This document shows positions 40,222 through 57,942 of a DNA stretch of 64,000 nt, piece after piece (the first letter of the stretch is position 1; each line of letters starts with the position of its first letter). The DNA is from Nostoc edaphicum CCNP1411 (GTDB taxonomy: Bacteria > Cyanobacteriota > Cyanobacteriia > Cyanobacteriales > Nostocaceae). Position numbers and translations under genes: made by a program. The DNA lies in NCBI RefSeq assembly GCF_014023275.1, contig NZ_CP054698.1:2294001-2358000 (forward strand), read 5' to 3'. The notes beneath the pieces are model-generated. The model was not told where the DNA came from. It was given only the letters and a program-made list of their open reading frames with translations, and made no database searches.

Positions 40222-40358
40222 AGCTTGCTGAGTAAGCCTTTGAGGTGTGTCAGAATCAGTTTTATTGAAAGAATTTATCAACTATTCCCCTGGAAAAACG
40301 ACCCCCTCAGATTGACCCCTCACGAGCTTAATTGTGATAAGACTTCTAGAAGAGTAGC

Positions 40359-40744
40359 CTTTTTCATCAACTTCCCCTCACGGGGATGGAAACTCCGTAG
40401 TCACATTCCTTCAAGAATTCACTACCACTTTTTCATCAACTTCCCCTCACGGGGATGGAAACAGTCTTCTTTTCTGTCCCGGTTGGTGCCTTCACAACTT
40501 TTTCATCAACTTCCCCTCACGGGGATGGAAACCTTCTTCTTATTCTTGGGTCTTTTGAAAAGAAACAACACTTTTTCATCAACTTCCCCTCACGGGGATG
40601 GAAACAAATGTTGAAAAACCTTTCTGTTTTAACCATTCCAAGCCTTTTTCATCAACTTCCCCTCACGGGGATGGAAACCATTGGACTAAGATAACTTCAA
40701 AGCCTGCTTTTGACTTTTTCATCAACTTCCCCTCACGGGGATGG
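40359..40744 (+). CRISPR. Orphan CRISPR array, six 35-nt repeats and five spacers
   Basis: Repeats start at 40359, 40428, 40498, 40571, 40644 and 40714; spacers are 34, 35, 38, 38 and 35 nt. The first five repeats are identical (CTTTTTCATCAACTTCCCCT then CACGGGGATGGAAAC). The end ATGGAAAC resembles the 8-nt crRNA handle, so the array reads on the plus strand with the leader to the left. The internal CCCC/GGGG pair can form a small hairpin. Repeat 6 stops after 31 nt (...GGATGG) at 40744, where a group II intron begins. No cas gene is in the window, so any processing would depend on enzymes encoded elsewhere. Confidence 0.93.
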
Positions 40745-41340
40745 GTGCGACTATCGGTTGCACGTAGAGAGTGAGTTCTGATGAAAAACTCGTGGCAAGT
40801 GTCAAAAGCCAGTACCCGCCCGAAGGGGCATTGCGGGTAACTGCGATGTTTCAGAGCTAGAGGGTAAAATGCGCGACATCAGCAAGCCGCACAGTTAGGT
40901 GAAGCGCTAGGGTAAAACTAGACAGGGTTAACAGATGTGAATCCTCGTTGAGGCATCGTGAAGAGGAGTTACCGAAAACGGCTGAGACGGTAAAAGGGGT
41001 AAAGTGATTCTGCCCAATCCTCAGAATCAGTAGACACCTTGAACCCCCGGTGTATAGAGGGAACCCAAGCTAGTTGCATCTCTCGCGTGTGATACGAAGT
41101 AACCCCAATGGGGTCTTTGAACTAGGTCGATGTCAAAAGTAGAGATTGGAGTAATCCAGCTTTAATCCCCCAGTGGGTGTAAGATGCCACAAGAAGCGAA
41201 TGCTGCTATGTCGAAAGGCAACAGGAAATCATAACTGGGCAGATAGGTCAAATGACCAACTTGAAAGAGTGCTGACGTGTGGCGAGTGAATCCCTTGAAG
41301 TCTAATGCAATGGAAACCGAACTTCTTCGGGAAAAGTTAG

Positions 41341-42612
41341 GTGCAATTAAAAATTGTGAACGTAACCGGAAGAACTACTGACTGGAATAGCGTCAACTGG
41401 AGAAACGCGTTCCGAGTAGTTAGGCGACTAAGACAGAGAATTTTCAAGGCAACCATTGGCGGTAACTTGAAAAAGGTTGGCAGCCTTCAAAAGCTACTTA
41501 TGCGTAGCTACTCTAATATAGTACTTTCCGTTAGAAGAGTTACGCAACTAAACCAAGGCAGTAAAACAGCAGGGGTAGATAGATTACTGGTAAAAACCCC
41601 GGCAGCTAGAGGGTGGTTGGTGGATATCCTCACCAAATTTATTCCTTGGAAGCCGTTACCAGTTAAGCGGGTGTATATCCGTAAATCTAATGGAAAACAA
41701 AGACCACTCGGAATACCTTGTATTGTCGATAGATGTCTCCAAGCCATCGTCAAAAATGCTTTGGAACCCTATTGGGAAGTGCACTTTGAGCGCACTTCCT
41801 ACGGCTTTAGACCGGGAAGGTCATGCCATGATGCGATTGAAAGGATACATTCAATGTCAAAAGCCAACTCCACTAAAAAGTGGGTGGTAGACGCGGACAT
41901 CGAAGGTTGCTTTGATAACATCTCTCATGTACCGCTAATTAATGCCATTGGTAATTTTCCAGCCAGAAAATTAATTCAACAATGGCTGAATGCGGGATAT
42001 GTGGATAAAGGTGTTTTCCATAATACCAATGCTGGAGTACCTCAAGGTGGAATTATTTCACCTCTACTTGCGAATATAGCTTTGCATGGTATGGAATCTG
42101 CCCTCGGTATCAAGTACGATAAAAACGGTCATACGATTGGCGACCGTGGTATTGTGCGCTATGCCGATGATTTGGTGGTGTTCTGCAAAAGTCGGGAAGA
42201 TGCTGTCAAAGCACATGACACCCTCCAAGAGTTTATGAATACTCGCGGTCTAACTCTATCGGAGTCAAAAACCCACATAGTACGGCTGTTGGATGGATTC
42301 AACTTCTTAGGCTTTCATATCAGACAATACCCTGATTCCACTACCAAAACAGGTAGGAAAGTATTAATCAAACCAAGCATTGAATCTTTGCAAAATATCC
42401 GGGATAAAATCAAACAAGTATGGCTTGATAATAAAAGTTGTAGTGTTGATTTTGTCATAGGCAAGCTAAACCCAATTATTCGGGGAATAGCTAACTATTA
42501 TCGGACTGTAGTTTCCTCACAAATATTCAGTTCTTTAGATAGATGGATGTTTGTTAGGGAGAGAAGGTATGCCAAAAGAATGCACGCCAAGAAAAAATCA
42601 ATCTTGGTGTAA
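41341..42612 (+). CDS. Group II intron reverse transcriptase/maturase (frameshifted, 5' part)
   Basis: 423 aa from GTG at 41341. RT blocks 0-7 are present, with RPLGIPCIVDRCLQ, YGFRPGRSCHDAI, the DADIEGCFDNI metal-binding block, GVPQGGIISPLLANI and the active site YADD (about residues 273-276). The maturase X region follows (SIESLQNIRDKIKQVW, NPIIRGIANYYR). The frame ends with KKKSILV-stop. The sequence of related proteins continues in the next frame (KNQSWCNRRYWG) at 42596 onward. The switch lies at an A6 run (42592-42597), which suggests a one-base insertion. The RT itself may still work in splicing; the endonuclease is cut off. Confidence 0.85.
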   Translation: MQLKIVNVTGRTTDWNSVNWRNAFRVVRRLRQRIFKATIGGNLKKVGSLQKLLMRSYSNIVLSVRRVTQLNQGSKTAGVDRLLVKTPAARGWLVDILTKFIPWKPLPVKRVYIRKSNGKQRPLGIPCIVDRCLQAIVKNALEPYWEVHFERTSYGFRPGRSCHDAIERIHSMSKANSTKKWVVDADIEGCFDNISHVPLINAIGNFPARKLIQQWLNAGYVDKGVFHNTNAGVPQGGIISPLLANIALHGMESALGIKYDKNGHTIGDRGIVRYADDLVVFCKSREDAVKAHDTLQEFMNTRGLTLSESKTHIVRLLDGFNFLGFHIRQYPDSTTKTGRKVLIKPSIESLQNIRDKIKQVWLDNKSCSVDFVIGKLNPIIRGIANYYRTVVSSQIFSSLDRWMFVRERRYAKRMHAKKKSILV

Positions 42613-47259: not shown

Positions 47260-48141
47260 CTACTCCTCTCCCCAAGTTTGCAGTTGCAAATAAACTAGTA
47301 CCAGCGTCCCTGCTAGTAACACCGTCGCGGCGGCGGCGGCATAACCAAAATCAAATTGACCAAAAGCCTCTTGGTAAATGTAGTAAACCAGCAAATTAGT
47401 TGAATTCAGTGGGCCACCGCCAGTCATCACATAAACTTGCTCAAAACTCCGCAATGTAAAAATCGCGGTAGTAATGATTGCAAATATCAAAGTAGGGCGC
47501 AATCCAGGCAGAGTAATATACCAAAATTGTTGCCAAGCATTTGCTCCATCCAAATCTGCTGCTTCATAACGACTGGGAGGAATTGCTTGCAATCCGGCTA
47601 AAAAAACCACCATATTGAAACCGAGTTGTTTCCAAATGCTCATTAAAATAAGTACCGGCATTGCCCAAAATGTGTCTCCTAGCCAGGGTATGGCTGGAAT
47701 GCCAAAAAACTCTAAAAGTCCGTTAACTGGCCCTGATGTTTGAAACAGCCAGCGAAATCCCAAACCAGCTGCCACAAGTGAAATAATTGAAGGCAGAAAA
47801 TAGGCACTCCGTAAAATTCCCCGCAAGGGAATGGAGCGGTTTAATAGCACAGCCAATCCCAAGGAGATAACTAAAGTGGGAATGATGGTGGCAACAGTAA
47901 AATAAAAGGTGTTACCCAGAACTTGCCAGAAGTCGGGGTTGAGTAGCAAGCGCCAATAGTTTTTTAAGCCTATCCAATAAGTACCTTTTAAGGTGAAACT
48001 ACCAGCGGTAAAACTGAGGTAGAACAAATAGGCGATCGGCCAAATGATAAAAACACCCAGTAAAATTAGTGCTGGTGTAAGAAAAATCCAGGCGGCAGCT
48101 GTATCATTATCCAACCACGATTTAGTATATTTTTTTGGCAT
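47260..48141 (-). CDS. Sugar ABC transporter permease (MalF-like)
   Basis: 293 aa with six predicted helices and the EAA loop EAADLDGANAWQQFWYITLP (about 190-209) that contacts the ATPase. It belongs to the binding-protein-dependent carbohydrate permeases. The usual partners (solute-binding protein, second permease, ATPase) are absent here, so it must work with products from elsewhere. Its first about 20 codons and upstream region are duplicated at 54528-54600 next to purN, evidence that purN was once its direct divergent neighbour. Confidence 0.9.
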   Translation of the reverse strand: MPKKYTKSWLDNDTAAAWIFLTPALILLGVFIIWPIAYLFYLSFTAGSFTLKGTYWIGLKNYWRLLLNPDFWQVLGNTFYFTVATIIPTLVISLGLAVLLNRSIPLRGILRSAYFLPSIISLVAAGLGFRWLFQTSGPVNGLLEFFGIPAIPWLGDTFWAMPVLILMSIWKQLGFNMVVFLAGLQAIPPSRYEAADLDGANAWQQFWYITLPGLRPTLIFAIITTAIFTLRSFEQVYVMTGGGPLNSTNLLVYYIYQEAFGQFDFGYAAAAATVLLAGTLVLVYLQLQTWGEE

Positions 48142-51163: not shown

Positions 51164-51292
51164 GTCACTTTTTGACTTCTGAATTCAACAACTCTGTTTT
51201 TTCAAAAAAATTAGATCGTTCCGTTCCGCTACACTCAAAAAGGGTAAAGGAAATAAGGACGGAGGGCTAAAGAGCTAGAGTATAAAGGGCTA

Positions 51293-54286
51293 CTAAAGAA
51301 TCCTCCCGGCAGCGCACACAATACGAAAACCAATATCGTAGTTGTGGAAGTCGCGCGACGTGTCGTAGTAGCGACACGCGGAACGGCAGTAGTCAGGATC
51401 GTAGAGCCAGGAACCGCCCCGCAGCAATGGAGATTTATTATCATTATCTATCCATGCACTTCCATCAATAGGCGCTTCTTTATAGTTGTCATGCCAACTA
51501 TCTTGACACCACTCCCAGACATTCCCGTGCATGTCGTATAATCCAAAGGCATTGGGTGGAAAACTTCCTACTTCTGTTGTTTCTTGGCGAAATTTGCCCT
51601 TTGGTGCAGAAGCATAAGTGTAATCCCCATTGTAGTTAGCTAACTCAGTTGTAATCGTCTCGCCAAAGTGAAATGGTGTCGTTGTTCCTGCACGACAAGC
51701 GTATTCCCACTCTGCTTCACTAGGTAGACGATATTTACGCCCAGTCTTTTGACTCAGCTTTTCGCAAAATTCCACTGCATCATTCCAGGATACTTTCTCT
51801 ACAGGACGTTTTGCCCCCTTGAAGGAGGAGGGATTGCTGCCCATTATTTGCTGGTACTGTTCCTGAGTCACTTGAAAATTGCCTATAAAAAAAGCAGGCA
51901 CATTCACAGTGTGCTGTGGGTCTTCAGCTTTGGTTCGACCATTTTCACTGGGTGGCGAACCCATCTTAAATGAACCAGCAACAATCTGAACCATATCTAA
52001 AGTTATGCCATTGCCTAAGTCCTCCTTAAAGAACTTAGCTTGCTTGGTAGGATCTCGTTTAATTATCTGTCCCTTTTTATCTACCGTTACCGTTTCATCA
52101 CCCTTAAAAATTTCACGGACTACTACTGCTGTCACCAAACCTACACCTCCCAAGCCAGCCCACTTCAAAAACTTTTGTCGAGTTATTCGCTCTTGAGTCG
52201 CTGGAGTTAATTGAGTACGGCTTGGCTGCTGAATATACTGCTGTAATTTTTGTTGTTTTTCTGCGTCGTCTTGTTGCCGTTGTTTCTCTACCTCTTGGTG
52301 CTTCAATCGTACAGATTCTTGTTGCTGTCTGATTCTCTCTTGCTCTTTTTGGTCTTCTGCTTCTGAAGATGATTGAATAATAATTGCTTCAAGTTCAGCT
52401 ATTTCCACATCATTTAGTTCTAAAATTTGTTGGAAGCGCTTAAGTTCTTCACGAGTAGCATCACTAAGAGGATATTCAAACTGAATTGACTCTCTAAACA
52501 CCTCTTCATACTGCTGAAGCTTTTGCTGATGTTCCTCTATAGCCGCAATAATTGGATTTTCAATTGCAGTCACATCCTCAGCAGTCAGATTCAACGCTTG
52601 ATGACGTTGCGTTAGTTGAGAGCGTTTGAAAGCACTGAGCGGATATTCTTGCTGAACACCTTCTGTAAACTCCTGCTCATATTGCCGCAAATTTGCTTGA
52701 TACGTTTCAATCTCCGCATTAATCCGCCTCTCGATCACACCCACATCTCTATCACTCAACCCCAACGTCTGCCAGGTTTCCTGCAACTGCTTTTGCATCA
52801 CATCATCAGGATAATGCTGGCGCTGCGTCGCCTTCACAAATGCCTGTTCGTACTGCTGAAGTTTTTGATGATAGCTTTCAATCTGTGTTGTGATTTGCGC
52901 TTCAATTGGTGCAACATCTACATCTGTCAATCCCAAGTGCTGCTGCTGTTGACGTAAATTAGTCCGGGTTGCCTCGCTGAGAGGATATTCCCGCTGCGTG
53001 GCAGTAAAAAACAGCCGTTGGTAGTCTTGGAGTTTTTGGTGATATGCCTCTACCTCAGCCGTAATCTGAGATTCAATTGCCGCAATATCTCTATCCGCAA
53101 GTTCTAATTGCTGCTGGGTTTGCCGTAAGCGATCGCGGCTTGCCGTACTCAGGGGAAACTCCTGTCGCAGTGCCGTTGTAAACGTCTGCTGATATGTTTG
53201 CAGGTTTTGCTGATGCGTCTTAAATCGTGCAGTCACTAGTGCCTCAATCGGCATCGTGTCCTCATTCCGCAGCCCCAAAATTTGTTGGAGATTTTGCAGA
53301 TCGTGGCGATCGCTATCGGTAATTCTCTCATCTCGCTCCAGTAGTTCAGTGAACACCTGCTGATACTGCTGGAGTTTTTCGCGGAACTCGTTGCGGTACG
53401 GTTCCAACACCTCATCTTCGATCGCCTTCGCCTCAGTTGTCTCCAATCCCAAGCGAGTCCTCTGATAATCTAATGTCCGACGACCAACAAGAGAAATTTC
53501 GCCTCGATGAATAAATCGCGCTACCTCTTTACGATATCGCTGTCTAGGATCACCCGGAGCCACCTTTGACAGTTGAATCTTAAAGCCTTCTCGAATTGCA
53601 TAGATTTCCGGCTTCATCGCAGGTTGAAGTTCTCGCACCTTCTGACTGGCGTATTCATGGAGTTCATCGATGGAAATAAACTCATCGCGATCGCGATCGG
53701 CTTCTCCTGACTTGATACCTTCAATCAAAAAACGAGTGTAAATCGATAAATCTTGCCCCTCTTGCTCAAAGGAATATTGAGTCGAAGTAGAAGAAGTCAA
53801 TACTGCTCGTCCTTCACCGCCCAACTGCTCCCGGATGTCAATCATACCGTCATCTTTGGCGGACATCCCTTCGGCAAACGCGCCACTAAAGCAGCTATCT
53901 AGGATCACCACCTGCCGCTGGGAGCGGCTTTCGCTCATGTGAACGTGAATAAAATTGGCAGACACCGACGTTGAGCGAATCAATTTTTTACTAGTGTTGC
54001 TAGTCGCCAGATACAGCCTGCCGCGATCGTCTTTGATGCCGTGTCCCGAAAAATACAGCAACAGCAAATCATCTTTGTGTCGTCCAGAGAATAGCGTTTC
54101 GATCGCAATTTCTACAACTTGTCGCTCAGGATTTTTTAGCCGGGTAATATCTGACACAGCAAATCCGCCCATCTCTGGATGCAGCAGTACTTCGTACACT
54201 GCATCCACATCTCTAACTGCACTGGGCAAAGGGTTCAGCCCTGGTTCATACTCACTGACCCCAATCAGCAATGCTACCTTCGCCAT
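51293..54286 (-). CDS. Caspase-FGE membrane protein with a DGR-type variable C-terminus
   Basis: 997 aa. Residues 1-240: caspase-like (peptidase C14) domain with YFSGHG (His82) and LDSCFSG (Cys132). Residues 197-208 look like an EF-hand loop (D-x-D-x-D ... E). Residues about 295-640: six helical repeats of about 57 aa (core YHQKLQQYEQAF, then YPLS). A charged coiled coil and one membrane helix (about 702-727) follow. Residues 750-997: FGE-sulfatase/C-type-lectin fold (RLPSEAEWEYACRAG, GLYDMHGNVWEWCQD, RGGSW, CRSA, IGFRIVC). Only one cysteine of the FGE pair is evident, so a binding rather than an oxidase role is likely. Codons 961-984 have the pattern of a diversified DGR region. Inferred role: a membrane sensor whose variable domain binds a ligand and triggers the protease. 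It is read divergently from purN. Confidence 0.93.
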   Translation of the reverse strand: MAKVALLIGVSEYEPGLNPLPSAVRDVDAVYEVLLHPEMGGFAVSDITRLKNPERQVVEIAIETLFSGRHKDDLLLLYFSGHGIKDDRGRLYLATSNTSKKLIRSTSVSANFIHVHMSESRSQRQVVILDSCFSGAFAEGMSAKDDGMIDIREQLGGEGRAVLTSSTSTQYSFEQEGQDLSIYTRFLIEGIKSGEADRDRDEFISIDELHEYASQKVRELQPAMKPEIYAIREGFKIQLSKVAPGDPRQRYRKEVARFIHRGEISLVGRRTLDYQRTRLGLETTEAKAIEDEVLEPYRNEFREKLQQYQQVFTELLERDERITDSDRHDLQNLQQILGLRNEDTMPIEALVTARFKTHQQNLQTYQQTFTTALRQEFPLSTASRDRLRQTQQQLELADRDIAAIESQITAEVEAYHQKLQDYQRLFFTATQREYPLSEATRTNLRQQQQHLGLTDVDVAPIEAQITTQIESYHQKLQQYEQAFVKATQRQHYPDDVMQKQLQETWQTLGLSDRDVGVIERRINAEIETYQANLRQYEQEFTEGVQQEYPLSAFKRSQLTQRHQALNLTAEDVTAIENPIIAAIEEHQQKLQQYEEVFRESIQFEYPLSDATREELKRFQQILELNDVEIAELEAIIIQSSSEAEDQKEQERIRQQQESVRLKHQEVEKQRQQDDAEKQQKLQQYIQQPSRTQLTPATQERITRQKFLKWAGLGGVGLVTAVVVREIFKGDETVTVDKKGQIIKRDPTKQAKFFKEDLGNGITLDMVQIVAGSFKMGSPPSENGRTKAEDPQHTVNVPAFFIGNFQVTQEQYQQIMGSNPSSFKGAKRPVEKVSWNDAVEFCEKLSQKTGRKYRLPSEAEWEYACRAGTTTPFHFGETITTELANYNGDYTYASAPKGKFRQETTEVGSFPPNAFGLYDMHGNVWEWCQDSWHDNYKEAPIDGSAWIDNDNKSPLLRGGSWLYDPDYCRSACRYYDTSRDFHNYDIGFRIVCAAGRIL
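51335..51406 (-). other. Candidate DGR variable region in the caspase-FGE gene
   Basis: Codons 961-984 between RGGSW and IGFRIVC. Putative variable codons are CTC TAC GAT, GAC TAC, TGT, TAC TAC GAC, TTC CAC AAC TAC GAT, all NNY. The constant codons between them are CCT, TGC, CGT TCC GCG, CGC and CGC GAC. This is what adenine-specific mutagenesis of an AAY-rich template produces. The GC-rich 3' part (TGTGCGCTGCCGGGAGG) could be the initiation-of-homology segment. No template repeat, RT or avd gene was found in the window. Confidence 0.7.
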
Positions 54287-54527: not shown

Positions 54528-54667
54528 AAAAATCCAGGCTGCTACTGTATCATTATCCAACCACGATTTAGTATATTTTTTTGGCATCTATAATTTTCCT
54601 TCTTAGCTGTTATGACCCTCCGCCCTGATTCTGCCCTTAGCTTGGTTTCTCCCAGCATTAGCGATGT
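54528..54667. repeat. 140-bp direct repeat, right copy (permease relic plus purN start)
   Basis: Matches 48082-48221. Here the purN start is the functional half, and the minus strand carries a relic of the permease start (MPKKYTKSWLDNDT) that ends in a stop after about 22 codons. Confidence 0.85.
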
Positions 54668-55274
54668 ATGCCAACAAGTCGCCCCTTTAAAACTGGGAAT
54701 TATGGCTTCTGGGAATGGCAGCAATTTTGATGTAGTTGCTCAAGCTATCCAAGATGGACAGCTAAATGCCCAAATTCAAGTTTTAATTTACAATAACCCC
54801 TCGGCGAAAGCAGCCGTAAGAGCAGCTAATAGAGGTGTAGAAGCTGTTTTATTAAATCACCGCAACTATCAAAGCCGAGAAGAATTTGATGATCAAATTG
54901 TGCAGACATTACTTCACTACAATGTGGAATGGGTGATTTTGGCAGGTTGGATGCGATTATTAACGTCAGTTTTCATGGATGCCTTTCCTGACAAAATTAT
55001 TAATATCCATCCTAGTTTGTTACCTAGTTTCAAGGGAATCCATGCTGTAGAACAAGCCTTGGCATCTGGGGTAAAAATCACTGGTTGTACAGCGCACATA
55101 GCTTGTCTAGAAATGGATAGTGGCCCAATCTTGATGCAAGCCGCAGTACCAGTTTTGCCGGATGATACAGCAGAAACACTCCACGCTAGGATTCAAGTTC
55201 AGGAACATCGAATTTTACCATTAGCGATCGCTCTGGCAGCTTCTTCGTCAAAAATGACACTAAGTTTAACGTGA
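54612..55274 (+). CDS. purN: Phosphoribosylglycinamide formyltransferase (PurN)
   Basis: 220 aa. It transfers a formyl group from 10-formyl-THF to glycinamide ribonucleotide in purine synthesis. Visible motifs: LGIMASGNGSNFDVV (phosphate binding), the catalytic NIHPSLLPSFKG with Asn and His, and EMDSGPIL with the conserved Asp. ATG 54612 lies within the 140-bp repeat, whose other copy at 48082 carries the same first codons. The N-terminus is about 25 residues longer than in E. coli PurN. Confidence 0.94.
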   Translation: MTLRPDSALSLVSPSISDVCQQVAPLKLGIMASGNGSNFDVVAQAIQDGQLNAQIQVLIYNNPSAKAAVRAANRGVEAVLLNHRNYQSREEFDDQIVQTLLHYNVEWVILAGWMRLLTSVFMDAFPDKIINIHPSLLPSFKGIHAVEQALASGVKITGCTAHIACLEMDSGPILMQAAVPVLPDDTAETLHARIQVQEHRILPLAIALAASSSKMTLSLT

Positions 55275-55362: not shown

Positions 55363-57942
55363 CTATTCACCATTAGCTTCAGCAGCTTGATACGCTTGTA
55401 GGAGCCTAGCATGATCGAGAGTAAATCCTACTTGCATCGCTATCTGGGCAAATAAATCAATCTCAGGCTGTTGCCAATCACGGGGTTCAGAACACTGATG
55501 TGCAATTAACAAGCCAAATAGCTGCTCATCTTTGATAATGGGTGCGACTAAATTTGCTTTGACAGCAAAGGATTCGAGTAAGCTAATGTGACAATCAGCC
55601 AAATCAGACTCATAAATGTTGTTGATTGCGACCACGCGACCAGACTGGTACTTTTCTACATACCCTTGAGTAAAACAGGGATCGTGGATTTTAGATCGCA
55701 AAACTTTGGGATAGCCTGAAACCACTGATTCGGCAATTATAATTCCGAACCAATTAGCGTAAAAACTATAAACCAGCACTCTGTCAGTACTCAGTGCTTT
55801 GCGAACCTCTTCCACAGTGGTTTTGATGATATCCTCTTCGTTAAGCGATTGGCGAATCTTGCGGATAATATCCACTAGCAACTGACTTCGCATCCTTTCG
55901 GCTTCGCTTCTTTGCAGGAGTCTGGCATGATCCAGAGCAAATCCCACTTGCATGGCTATTTGGCCAAATAAATCAATCTCAGATTGTTGCCAATCACGAG
56001 GTCTGGAGCATTGATGTGCAATTAACAAGCCAAATAGCTGCTCATCTTTAAGAATGGGGGCTACTAAATTTGCTTTGACAGCAAAGGATTCGAGTAAGCT
56101 AATGTGACAATCAGCTAAACCGGCTTCATAAATGTTGTTGATTGCGAGAACCCGACCAGACTGATACTCTTCTACATAACCTTGACCAAAACATGGGTCT
56201 TGGATTTCAGCTCGTAAAACTTTTGGGTAGGTGAGAACAACTGATTCGGCAATCACAGTTCCAGACCAATTAGCATTAAAGCTATAAACCATCACTCGGT
56301 CAGTACTCAGTACCTTACGAACCTCGTCTACGGTAATTTTGAGGACATCCTCTTCATTGAGCGATTGGCGAATGCTGCCGATAGTATCCACCAACAACCG
56401 GCTTTGCACACCTTCAGCCTCGATTCGTTGCAACAACCTGGCGTGGTCAAGAGCAAATCCTACTTGCATTGCTAGCTGGGCAAATAAATCAATCTCAGGC
56501 TGTTGCCAATCACGGGGTCTAGAACACTGATGTGCAATTAACAAGCCAAATAGCTGTTCATCTTTGAGAATGGGGGCAACCAAATTTGCTTTGACAGCAA
56601 AGGATTCGAGCAGGTTAATGTGACAATCAGCCAAACCGGACTCATAAATATTGTTTGTGGCTACAACGCGACCAGACTGATATTTTTCTACATAACCTTG
56701 ACCGAAACAGATGTCTTGGATTTCAGACCGCAAAACTTTGGGATAACCTGGAACCACTGATTCGGCAATGATGATTCCAGACCAATCAGTGTTAAGGCTA
56801 TAAACCAGCACTCGATCAGTACTCAGTACTTTACGAACCTCTTCCACAGTGGTTTTGAGGACATCCTCTTCGTTGAGGGATTGGCGAATGCTGCGGGTAA
56901 TTTCTATGAATAACTGAGCTTTATCTGCTTTGGTATCTACCTGTTCTAGAAGCTTGGTGTAGTCAAGGGCAAATCCTACTTGCATGGCTATCTGAGCGAA
57001 CAAATCAATTTCAGACTGCTGCCAAAAGCGAAGTCTAGAACACTGATGTGCAATCAATAAACCAAATAGCTGTTTGCCTTTGAGAATGGGTGCTACTAAA
57101 TGAGATTTAACCGCAAATTGTTCCAGCAAGTCAATATCACTATCACTGAGATCGGCTTTATGGATGTCATCAATAGCATGGATGCTACCACTCTGGTATT
57201 TTCCTACATACCCTGCCTCGAACCCAGGATCTGAGACTGTAACCCCTAAGATTTTCGGTAAACCAGGTGCTACTGATTCGCTGATAAAGGTTCCATTACA
57301 GTTGGAGTTGAAACAAAAGATGGTTACGCGATCAATGCTTAAAGCTCTGCGAATTTCTTCTGAGGTAGTTTTGAGAACATCTTCTTCATTAAATGATTCT
57401 CGAATCCAGCGGGTAATTTTTATCAATAGCTGGGAGTAATCAGCTTCGGCTTCTTTCTCTTGTACCAAAACCGAAAGCAGGTCTGTGAATAAGGTGATGT
57501 TTCTTTCTAACATCACTAATTCATCTTGGTTAGCGATGAAAACTTCAGTAAACTCACTATTTGGACGTAGCTTTGTTTTGATGGTATTAGAAATTGCAGC
57601 TGCCTTGCTGACTCGACTCATAACTCGATTAGTCACAAAAACAGCGATCGCACCTGCCAAAATTGCTGTTACTCCTGTACCAGTTAACAGGAGTAATAAT
57701 TGTCTCTGTAGAGCAAGTTCTGTTTCTGTTGAACTTTTTGCACTCTCAAGTCTTACTTGCGGAATTTGTTTGGTAATTAAATTAATACCATAGTAGTAAG
57801 TAGCTGTTCCAATTGCAACCACAGGAAGGACACTGATACTTAGTGCCCAAACAATCGCTTTAGTCTTTAAACTCCATTTTTGCTGCCACAGTCTTTGTTT
57901 ACGATTTCGTCTTGCTTGGTTTTGAGAAAAAGACTGACTCAT
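55363..57942 (-). CDS. Membrane protein with four GAF domains, three of DXCF cyanobacteriochrome type
   Basis: 859 aa. Two membrane helices (about 31-53 and 82-107) flank a short external loop; a HAMP-like linker follows. Four GAF domains have a period of about 172 residues (about 175, 342, 514, 687). GAF2, GAF3 and GAF4 each have a D-x-C-F motif (about 410, 582, 754) and a Cys-His pair in ADCHINLL/ADCHISLL (about 441, 612, 784), the two cysteines of DXCF cyanobacteriochromes. GAF1 lacks both (DPGF, SDSD). The protein ends right after GAF4; no kinase, GGDEF or MCP domain follows. PixJ-type phototaxis receptors have similar N-termini plus an MCP output. GAF2-4 are near-duplicates. The light-sensing role is inferred. 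Confidence 0.85.
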   Translation of the reverse strand: MSQSFSQNQARRNRKQRLWQQKWSLKTKAIVWALSISVLPVVAIGTATYYYGINLITKQIPQVRLESAKSSTETELALQRQLLLLLTGTGVTAILAGAIAVFVTNRVMSRVSKAAAISNTIKTKLRPNSEFTEVFIANQDELVMLERNITLFTDLLSVLVQEKEAEADYSQLLIKITRWIRESFNEEDVLKTTSEEIRRALSIDRVTIFCFNSNCNGTFISESVAPGLPKILGVTVSDPGFEAGYVGKYQSGSIHAIDDIHKADLSDSDIDLLEQFAVKSHLVAPILKGKQLFGLLIAHQCSRLRFWQQSEIDLFAQIAMQVGFALDYTKLLEQVDTKADKAQLFIEITRSIRQSLNEEDVLKTTVEEVRKVLSTDRVLVYSLNTDWSGIIIAESVVPGYPKVLRSEIQDICFGQGYVEKYQSGRVVATNNIYESGLADCHINLLESFAVKANLVAPILKDEQLFGLLIAHQCSRPRDWQQPEIDLFAQLAMQVGFALDHARLLQRIEAEGVQSRLLVDTIGSIRQSLNEEDVLKITVDEVRKVLSTDRVMVYSFNANWSGTVIAESVVLTYPKVLRAEIQDPCFGQGYVEEYQSGRVLAINNIYEAGLADCHISLLESFAVKANLVAPILKDEQLFGLLIAHQCSRPRDWQQSEIDLFGQIAMQVGFALDHARLLQRSEAERMRSQLLVDIIRKIRQSLNEEDIIKTTVEEVRKALSTDRVLVYSFYANWFGIIIAESVVSGYPKVLRSKIHDPCFTQGYVEKYQSGRVVAINNIYESDLADCHISLLESFAVKANLVAPIIKDEQLFGLLIAHQCSEPRDWQQPEIDLFAQIAMQVGFTLDHARLLQAYQAAEANGE

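Follow-up and report, generated by a model that had tools for sequence, protein, structure and literature searches.

A caspase-linked protein of Nostoc edaphicum CCNP1411 as a remote diversity-generating retroelement target, very probably frozen after loss of its mutator

Introduction

How did the end of one caspase-linked gene of the cyanobacterium Nostoc edaphicum CCNP1411 become so variable, and is it still being rewritten? The gene lies in a stretch of 64,000 nucleotides, here called the window (NZ_CP054698.1, positions 2,294,001 to 2,358,000 of the forward strand; C6:2294001-2358000 in our contig numbering). At 51293..54286 of the window (minus strand), it encodes a protein of 997 amino acids (aa) in which a caspase domain, helical repeats, and a C-terminal domain of the formylglycine-generating enzyme (FGE) fold, a C-type-lectin-like (CLec) fold, are joined. 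The first-pass annotation, made from the window alone, assigned the end of this gene to a diversity-generating retroelement (DGR), in which a reverse transcriptase (RT) copies a template repeat (TR) into a variable region (VR) with changes at adenines, and it expected the RT and the template elsewhere in the genome. As shown below, the DGR origin stood and the resident mutator did not: we hold it very probable that the VR is a remote (trans) DGR target, now frozen after loss of its mutator.

Adenine-restricted changes in the variable region

The VR and the Avd family were used to search 148 related genomes, N. edaphicum included, and the decisive comparison was made with the template of Nostoc desertorum CM1-VF14 (G017). 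Over a 107-nucleotide (nt) VR core, 15 of the 31 template adenines were changed against 1 of the 76 other bases; over the 121 nt that align to this template without internal gaps (51304..51424, minus strand), the counts were 15/32 adenines and 1/89 other bases (Fisher p=1e-9). Eleven of the 15 adenine changes fell on codon position 1, three on position 2, and one on position 3. The same split applied to 600 nt of FGE sequence flanking the VR gave no adenine excess, with p=0.62 against Nostoc KVJ20, 0.94 against Nostoc sp. WHI, and 0.70 against N. desertorum. As far as sequence comparison goes, positions 51335-51406 are thus confirmed as a DGR variable region, one that lies in an FGE-fold domain joined to a caspase domain, as the first-pass annotation had proposed; the two domains were matched by PF03781 (E 4e-60) and PF00656 (E 8.3e-18), respectively.

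The variable surface comprises 24 codons between RGGSW and IGFRIVC (51335..51406, minus strand), of which 21 are NNY and 16 NNC, values exceeded by no other 24-codon stretch of the gene, and the NNC fraction across the whole gene is 0.15. The pattern alone is weak because it is implied by the amino acids encoded: D, Y, C, F, H, and N have no codons other than NNY, and together they make up 15 of the 24 residues. We rejected the NNY run as evidence by itself. The annotation had listed 14 NNY codons; the pattern holds, and the list omits one GAC, whose treatment as a constant codon was fair because GAC is likewise the codon of the N. desertorum template at this place.

The last variable codon sits 13 codons ahead of the stop, and the VR is followed by a candidate initiation of mutagenic homing (IMH) site (51278..51303, minus strand), made of the VR-type 3' end GGATTCTTTAG and the downstream tail TAGCCCTTTATACTC. 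In an alignment of 22 VR and TR sequences, the 3' end of the window VR resembled most other VRs and differed from the template end of the four close cassettes, GTCTCTTCACCGCGAGAG; it reads AGGATTCTT where the four close TRs read (T/G)GTCTCTTCACC. Extending the comparison with the N. desertorum template to this end added 3 non-adenine differences, at the places where the window and most VRs depart from these TRs. Such a difference between VR and TR ends is expected of IMH versus IMH*. VR-like 3' ends were not universal in the alignment, with deviations in a second caspase-FGE locus of N. edaphicum (L019, see below) and in G017_VR2. Downstream of the VR, an inverted-repeat search gave no convincing hairpin.

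The same site in other species

Two neighbors found near the gene in orthologous loci served as synteny anchors: the next listed gene upstream, which is divergent and which we take to be purN-like (54612..55274, plus strand), and a presumably ABC-transporter permease-like gene (47260..48141, minus strand). By these neighbors, an FGE-ended orthologue was recognized in Nostoc sp. WHI, N. mirabile, Desmonostoc muscorum, KVJ20, NMS2, and NMS7; the NMS7 orthologue is shorter (404 aa), and the WHI permease lies on the opposite side. The site is also present in JL34 (L178) and N. desertorum (L194), where the gene is cut or broken. The counts against KVJ20 and the pairwise comparisons of VR and flank took the six orthologues; L178 and L194 were left out, the latter entering for its VR only.

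Outside the VR, the window gene differed from KVJ20 at 227 of 2862 positions (8%), 126 of them at codon position 3. Inside the VR, 16 of the 29 TR-adenine sites and 3 of the 88 other sites differed (p=2e-9), so that variation among related strains falls on template adenines and, within the VR, hardly on other sites, as predicted by the annotation. The comparison with WHI gave 16/31 and 3/89, and the remaining four orthologues showed 9 to 17 differences at 89 non-adenine sites. The VR was more divergent than the flank in 21/21 pairwise comparisons (p from 0.007 down to 1e-9). Moreover, the same-site VR of N. desertorum differed from the TR resident in that genome at 16/30 adenines and at 1/88 other sites, indicating that the cassette targets the purN site in trans.

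Intact cassettes occur in several genomes of the genus, in the order FGE protein(s), Avd, RT, and TR; their RT is 359 aa long and carries the motifs IGNLTSQ and YVDD. A TAG flagged in G029 sits just before an open 352-aa frame and is not shown to be damage. Behind the templates, about 150 nt form a conserved folded RNA (e.g., L092:6960-7125), for which 43 pairs were predicted from nine sequences, 14 of them with two-sided changes; one of the nine is a tail from N. edaphicum itself (C6:1471452-1471587). Rfam gave two matches to template plus tail, both far below gathering scores, and no family reached its gathering score.

VRs were then typed by their length and non-adenine sites against 16 templates, obtained from 16 of the 19 source loci with at least nine AAN codons required. 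The N. desertorum template was the best fit for the same-site VRs of the window (1/76 non-adenine differences), KVJ20 (2/75), WHI (2/76), and N. desertorum (1/75), and for L020 (2/74), a second VR of N. edaphicum that has its constant sites in common with the window VR; the KVJ20, N. desertorum, and L020 fits include 3 gap columns. A different template, 6 bases longer, fitted the same-site VRs of N. mirabile (0/82, with 3 gap columns) and NMS7 (2/82), as well as other VRs in UHCC 0926 (2/82) and G072 (1/82). By sequence, the VRs of this one site therefore fit at least two template haplotypes, and in D. muscorum the VR does not fit the resident one. A lone copy of the longer template with its RNA tail was also seen in Nostoc sp. 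JL34 (G030, L274:5765-6065), between unrelated genes; the frames listed between 2500 and 8028 of that locus included no RT.

In the 17 genomes reached via loci of this gene, a full-length DGR RT was present in 4, and an RT of the close lineage only in N. desertorum and D. muscorum; the Avd and RT lineage comparison covered 20 of the 30 RT loci (one strand). In Nostoc sp. UHCC 0926, a cassette with an RT of 89% identity sits on plasmid pn2, in the vicinity of ParA/ParB, trypsin-like, and AAA ATPase genes; another cassette (RT 88% identical) lies on a Fischerella plasmid.

Probable loss of the mutator from the genome

The genome of N. edaphicum is complete (8,316,316 bases, 6 contigs, completeness 100), and the RT and template announced by the annotation were not found in it. 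A whole-genome BLAST search with two template haplotypes at E<=10 returned no template. The RVT_1 profile, which detects the N. desertorum DGR RT at 79 bits, gave ten matches, nine with group II intron motifs, whole or fragmentary, and a tenth on contig C2 in an RT-Cas1 type protein. The latter, on a 99-kb contig, has 675 aa (L024:7075-9102; Cas1 part assigned by eye). With this profile and a DGR RT query combined, no intact RT with the DGR-type GxxxSQ motif was found in the whole genome; beyond the ten RTs, the query matched only a stub of 64 codons at C6:1277182-1277373 (residues 290-353, 50% identity). Since neither TR nor intact DGR RT was found, the hypervariability that the annotation attributed to the protein most likely belongs to the past in this genome, the mutator having decayed. 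The annotation had also taken such an absence as speaking against a DGR; the templates of relatives still show the DGR origin, and absence from the genome is the wrong test because a target can outlive its mutator.

The RT stub lies in the L019 locus, preceded by an intact Avd frame (NF033474, 134 bits; cut-off 80), which in turn follows a caspase-FGE gene of 697 aa. We do not regard the stub as an interrupted frame: its TAG is the last codon of the match, and the stub is cut at the front, with no interruption shown. L019 was also rejected as the writer of the window VR, given that its own VR best fits the G009 and G020 templates (non-adenine 3/80 and 3/79), of whose lineage its Avd is a member; the best template for the window VR is that of N. 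desertorum. Weak Avd-like matches at L015-L018 were under the cut-off and rejected as DGR parts.

A second relic was found with the second template haplotype and its 3' tail as query: the tail matched at C6:1471452-1471587 (L277; 74% identity, E 7e-13), where a template-type tail directly follows the VR of a further caspase-FGE gene of N. edaphicum, a 609-codon frame. This junction of VR and template tail is likely the scar of a VR-TR recombination that would have deleted Avd and RT. A weak match at C6:3806927-3806998 (L278; E 0.0074), which covers only the final third of this tail, is perhaps a further relic.

Proposed model and alternatives

We propose a model in which an adenine-mutagenic RT acting with Avd would have copied a template RNA resembling the N. 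desertorum one, the cDNA then replacing the VR and altering surface codons of the FGE domain. The mutator would later have been lost from the genome, leaving one binding surface to be inherited as a fixed allele. By analogy with what has been proposed for conflict systems of multicellular bacteria, the FGE surface would sense a ligand and the caspase would act on binding; judging from the architecture, ligand sensing by the FGE domain with a caspase response is the most likely function.

Several observations weigh against this model. The freezing is inferred, not observed over time, and nothing found in the genome of N. edaphicum could be attributed to the cassette responsible for the window VR: the Avd of L019 is 92-94% identical to those of G020, G001, G025, and G007 and 66-67% identical to those of the four close cassettes. 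The template compared comes from another species, whose orthologue lacks a continuous open frame; the VR holds one non-adenine change, C to G, and distant templates give more of them, 14/99 (G045) and 15/89 (G063). Moreover, the VR cannot be predicted from the presence of a cassette. An intact one resides in D. muscorum, yet the same-site VR of this species differs from the resident TR at 15/33 adenines and 15/88 other sites, and a chromosomal FGE gene of UHCC 0926, beside which none of the purN-site neighbors was seen, differs from the plasmid TR at 14/34 adenines and 7/87 other sites, with 7 gap columns. The VRs of D. muscorum and NMS2 fit none of the 16 templates well (best non-adenine 10/82 each). 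We read the poorly fitting VRs of D. muscorum and UHCC 0926 as products of older templates. The VRs of D. muscorum and NMS2 have most residues in common, yet differ at 8/78 sites against 22/699 in the flank (p=0.007), with 4 of the 8 changes at codon position 3; once frozen, a VR and its flank may thus not evolve in quite the same way.

The present VR could also stem from gene conversion or recombination with another DGR-written VR and not from retrohoming at this gene. The L020 VR, with the same constant sites and template haplotype as the window VR (non-adenine 2/74, 3 gap columns), speaks for such an origin, as does the similarity of VR 3' ends and tails among genes. We nevertheless consider this origin unlikely, as 87/88 non-adenine sites of the N. 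desertorum orthologue agree with the TR resident in that genome, so that the site is apparently directly writable. A second alternative, that an RT and a template overlooked by the searches, for instance on a plasmid absent from the assembly, still rewrite the VR in trans, would agree with the plasmid-borne close cassette of UHCC 0926 and with remote targets being common among cyanobacterial DGRs, according to Vallota-Eastman et al. (2020, PMC7517822). It appears very improbable in view of a complete genome of 6 contigs (completeness 100), in which no TR appeared at E<=10 with two template haplotypes and all ten RVT_1 matches are of other kinds. Finally, we give virtually no credence to an ordinary FGE paralogue whose surface was varied by normal positive selection, because VR differences are nearly restricted to template adenines and the flank is unbiased, although the NNY run is implied by the residues and 6 of the 8 FGE genes of this genome do not match the VR.

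Besides the frozen-target model, a broader and more tentative picture, which we regard as possible but rather less likely to be correct than not, is that of itinerant mutators: DGR cassettes, some of them plasmid-borne, would transit Nostoc genomes, rewriting in trans the caspase-sensor genes fixed on the chromosome, and would then be lost, sometimes by VR-TR recombination, each host keeping the frozen allele of a departed template. If so, a single orthologous site would be a readable record of past cassettes.

Relation to known systems

TvpA of Treponema denticola (2y3c), which we take to be a DGR variable protein, resembles the window protein as an FGE-type variable protein and aligns through the RGGSW...GFR end. 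Unlike it, TvpA is a chain of 294 residues that has neither caspase nor repeats, and its score as a relative of the FGE domain (E 1.1e-28) lies below that of PvdO 5hha (E 1.4e-41), an FGE-fold enzyme that to our knowledge is not a DGR target. The DGR status of TvpA is named in Kaur et al. (2020, PMC7159879), whose EACC1-associated caspase systems, like the window protein, combine a constant peptidase with variable C-terminal domains; in contrast to these systems, no EACC1 gene was recognized next to the window gene, where no EACC1 profile was run. DGR-diversified putative antigen sensors of multicellular bacteria, of FGE type, tied to peptidase effectors, and in some cases best explained by trans writing, have been described (PMC10907252); the window protein has the same pairing of FGE-type sensor and peptidase effector, but diversification was seen in the populations studied there and no working cassette was found here. 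For the DGR of N. punctiforme, hypermutation specific to adenines has been shown in culture (PMC12691664).

The closest precedent is the work of Vallota-Eastman et al. (PMC7517822) on remote variable proteins of filamentous cyanobacteria, which like the window protein have an orthocaspase N terminus and a C-terminal CLec VR remote from the cassette. These authors reported remnant TR-VR homology and no proximal RT for all3226 of PCC 7120 and suggested that the diversifier is removed once selection has taken place. Variable proteins of the orthocaspase-CLec type, remote targets, and the PCC 7120 remnant are therefore already known. What differs here is a search of the whole genome, which has neither RT nor TR and holds relics of other cassettes, and one site followed across species by template haplotype, giving an unusually clear record of mutator loss. 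In the literature on DGR decay, Nostoc, and plasmids, we recognized by title no description of template haplotypes at one orthologous site.

If the frozen-target model is true, DGR targets outlive their mutator, so that counts of RTs undercount DGR-made proteins. As a rough estimate, a DNA match to the window VR at E<=1e-6 was found in 28 of the 53 genus genomes, N. edaphicum included (best five or fewer candidates per genome), and a full-length DGR RT in 8 of the 53 (best 13 or fewer candidates per genome); 23 of the 28 VR-matching genomes had no full-length DGR RT among the candidates scored. A DNA match to the VR does not prove DGR writing. The fate of a hypervariable immune-like receptor after mutation stops would, moreover, become testable by ordinary comparative genomics, since the length of a VR and its non-adenine sites indicate which template wrote it.

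Protein architecture and neighboring genes

The 997-aa protein (51293..54286, minus strand) passes NF047832, the EACC1-associated caspase type, with 173.4 bits (curated cut-off 140). Its caspase (C14) domain (residues 3-228; 53603..54280, minus strand) has SGHG at residue 80 and DSC at residue 130, presumably the expected His/Cys dyad. Several helical repeats at about residues 245-685 (52232..53554, minus strand) are suggested by the helices of a low-confidence AlphaFold model of the full protein (mean pLDDT 42.3), and this middle part aligns across 510 to 589 residues in five full-length orthologues. A hydrophobic stretch from residue 709, WAGLGGVGLVTAVVV (52118..52162, minus strand), is by eye a possible membrane helix and is followed by the FGE-sulfatase domain (residues 764-990; 51317..51997, minus strand). 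In the AlphaFold model of this domain (mean pLDDT 57.8, most of the VR <50), the variable residues could not be mapped on the structure. Eight genes of this genome have an FGE domain, and 6 of them had no BLAST match to the window VR at E<=10, indicating that the FGE fold alone does not make a DGR target. The small gene preceding the L019 caspase had no Pfam match.

In nine further relatives (L169-L177), no FGE domain follows the caspase and repeat part, the purN-like neighbor being present in 7 of the 9; a BON domain was found in one (L169) of the four FGE-less relatives scanned with Pfam. These ends fit a constant effector with exchangeable sensors, an apparent sensor swapping. Some of the nine have hydrophobic C-terminal ends, as judged by eye.

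Elsewhere in the window, positions 55363-57942 encode a protein of 859 aa with, by eye, about four similar tandem GAF-like units, and a CRISPR-like array (40355-40757; six copies of a 48-nt repeat, spacing 69-73 nt) precedes a group II intron RT frame at 41341-42612.

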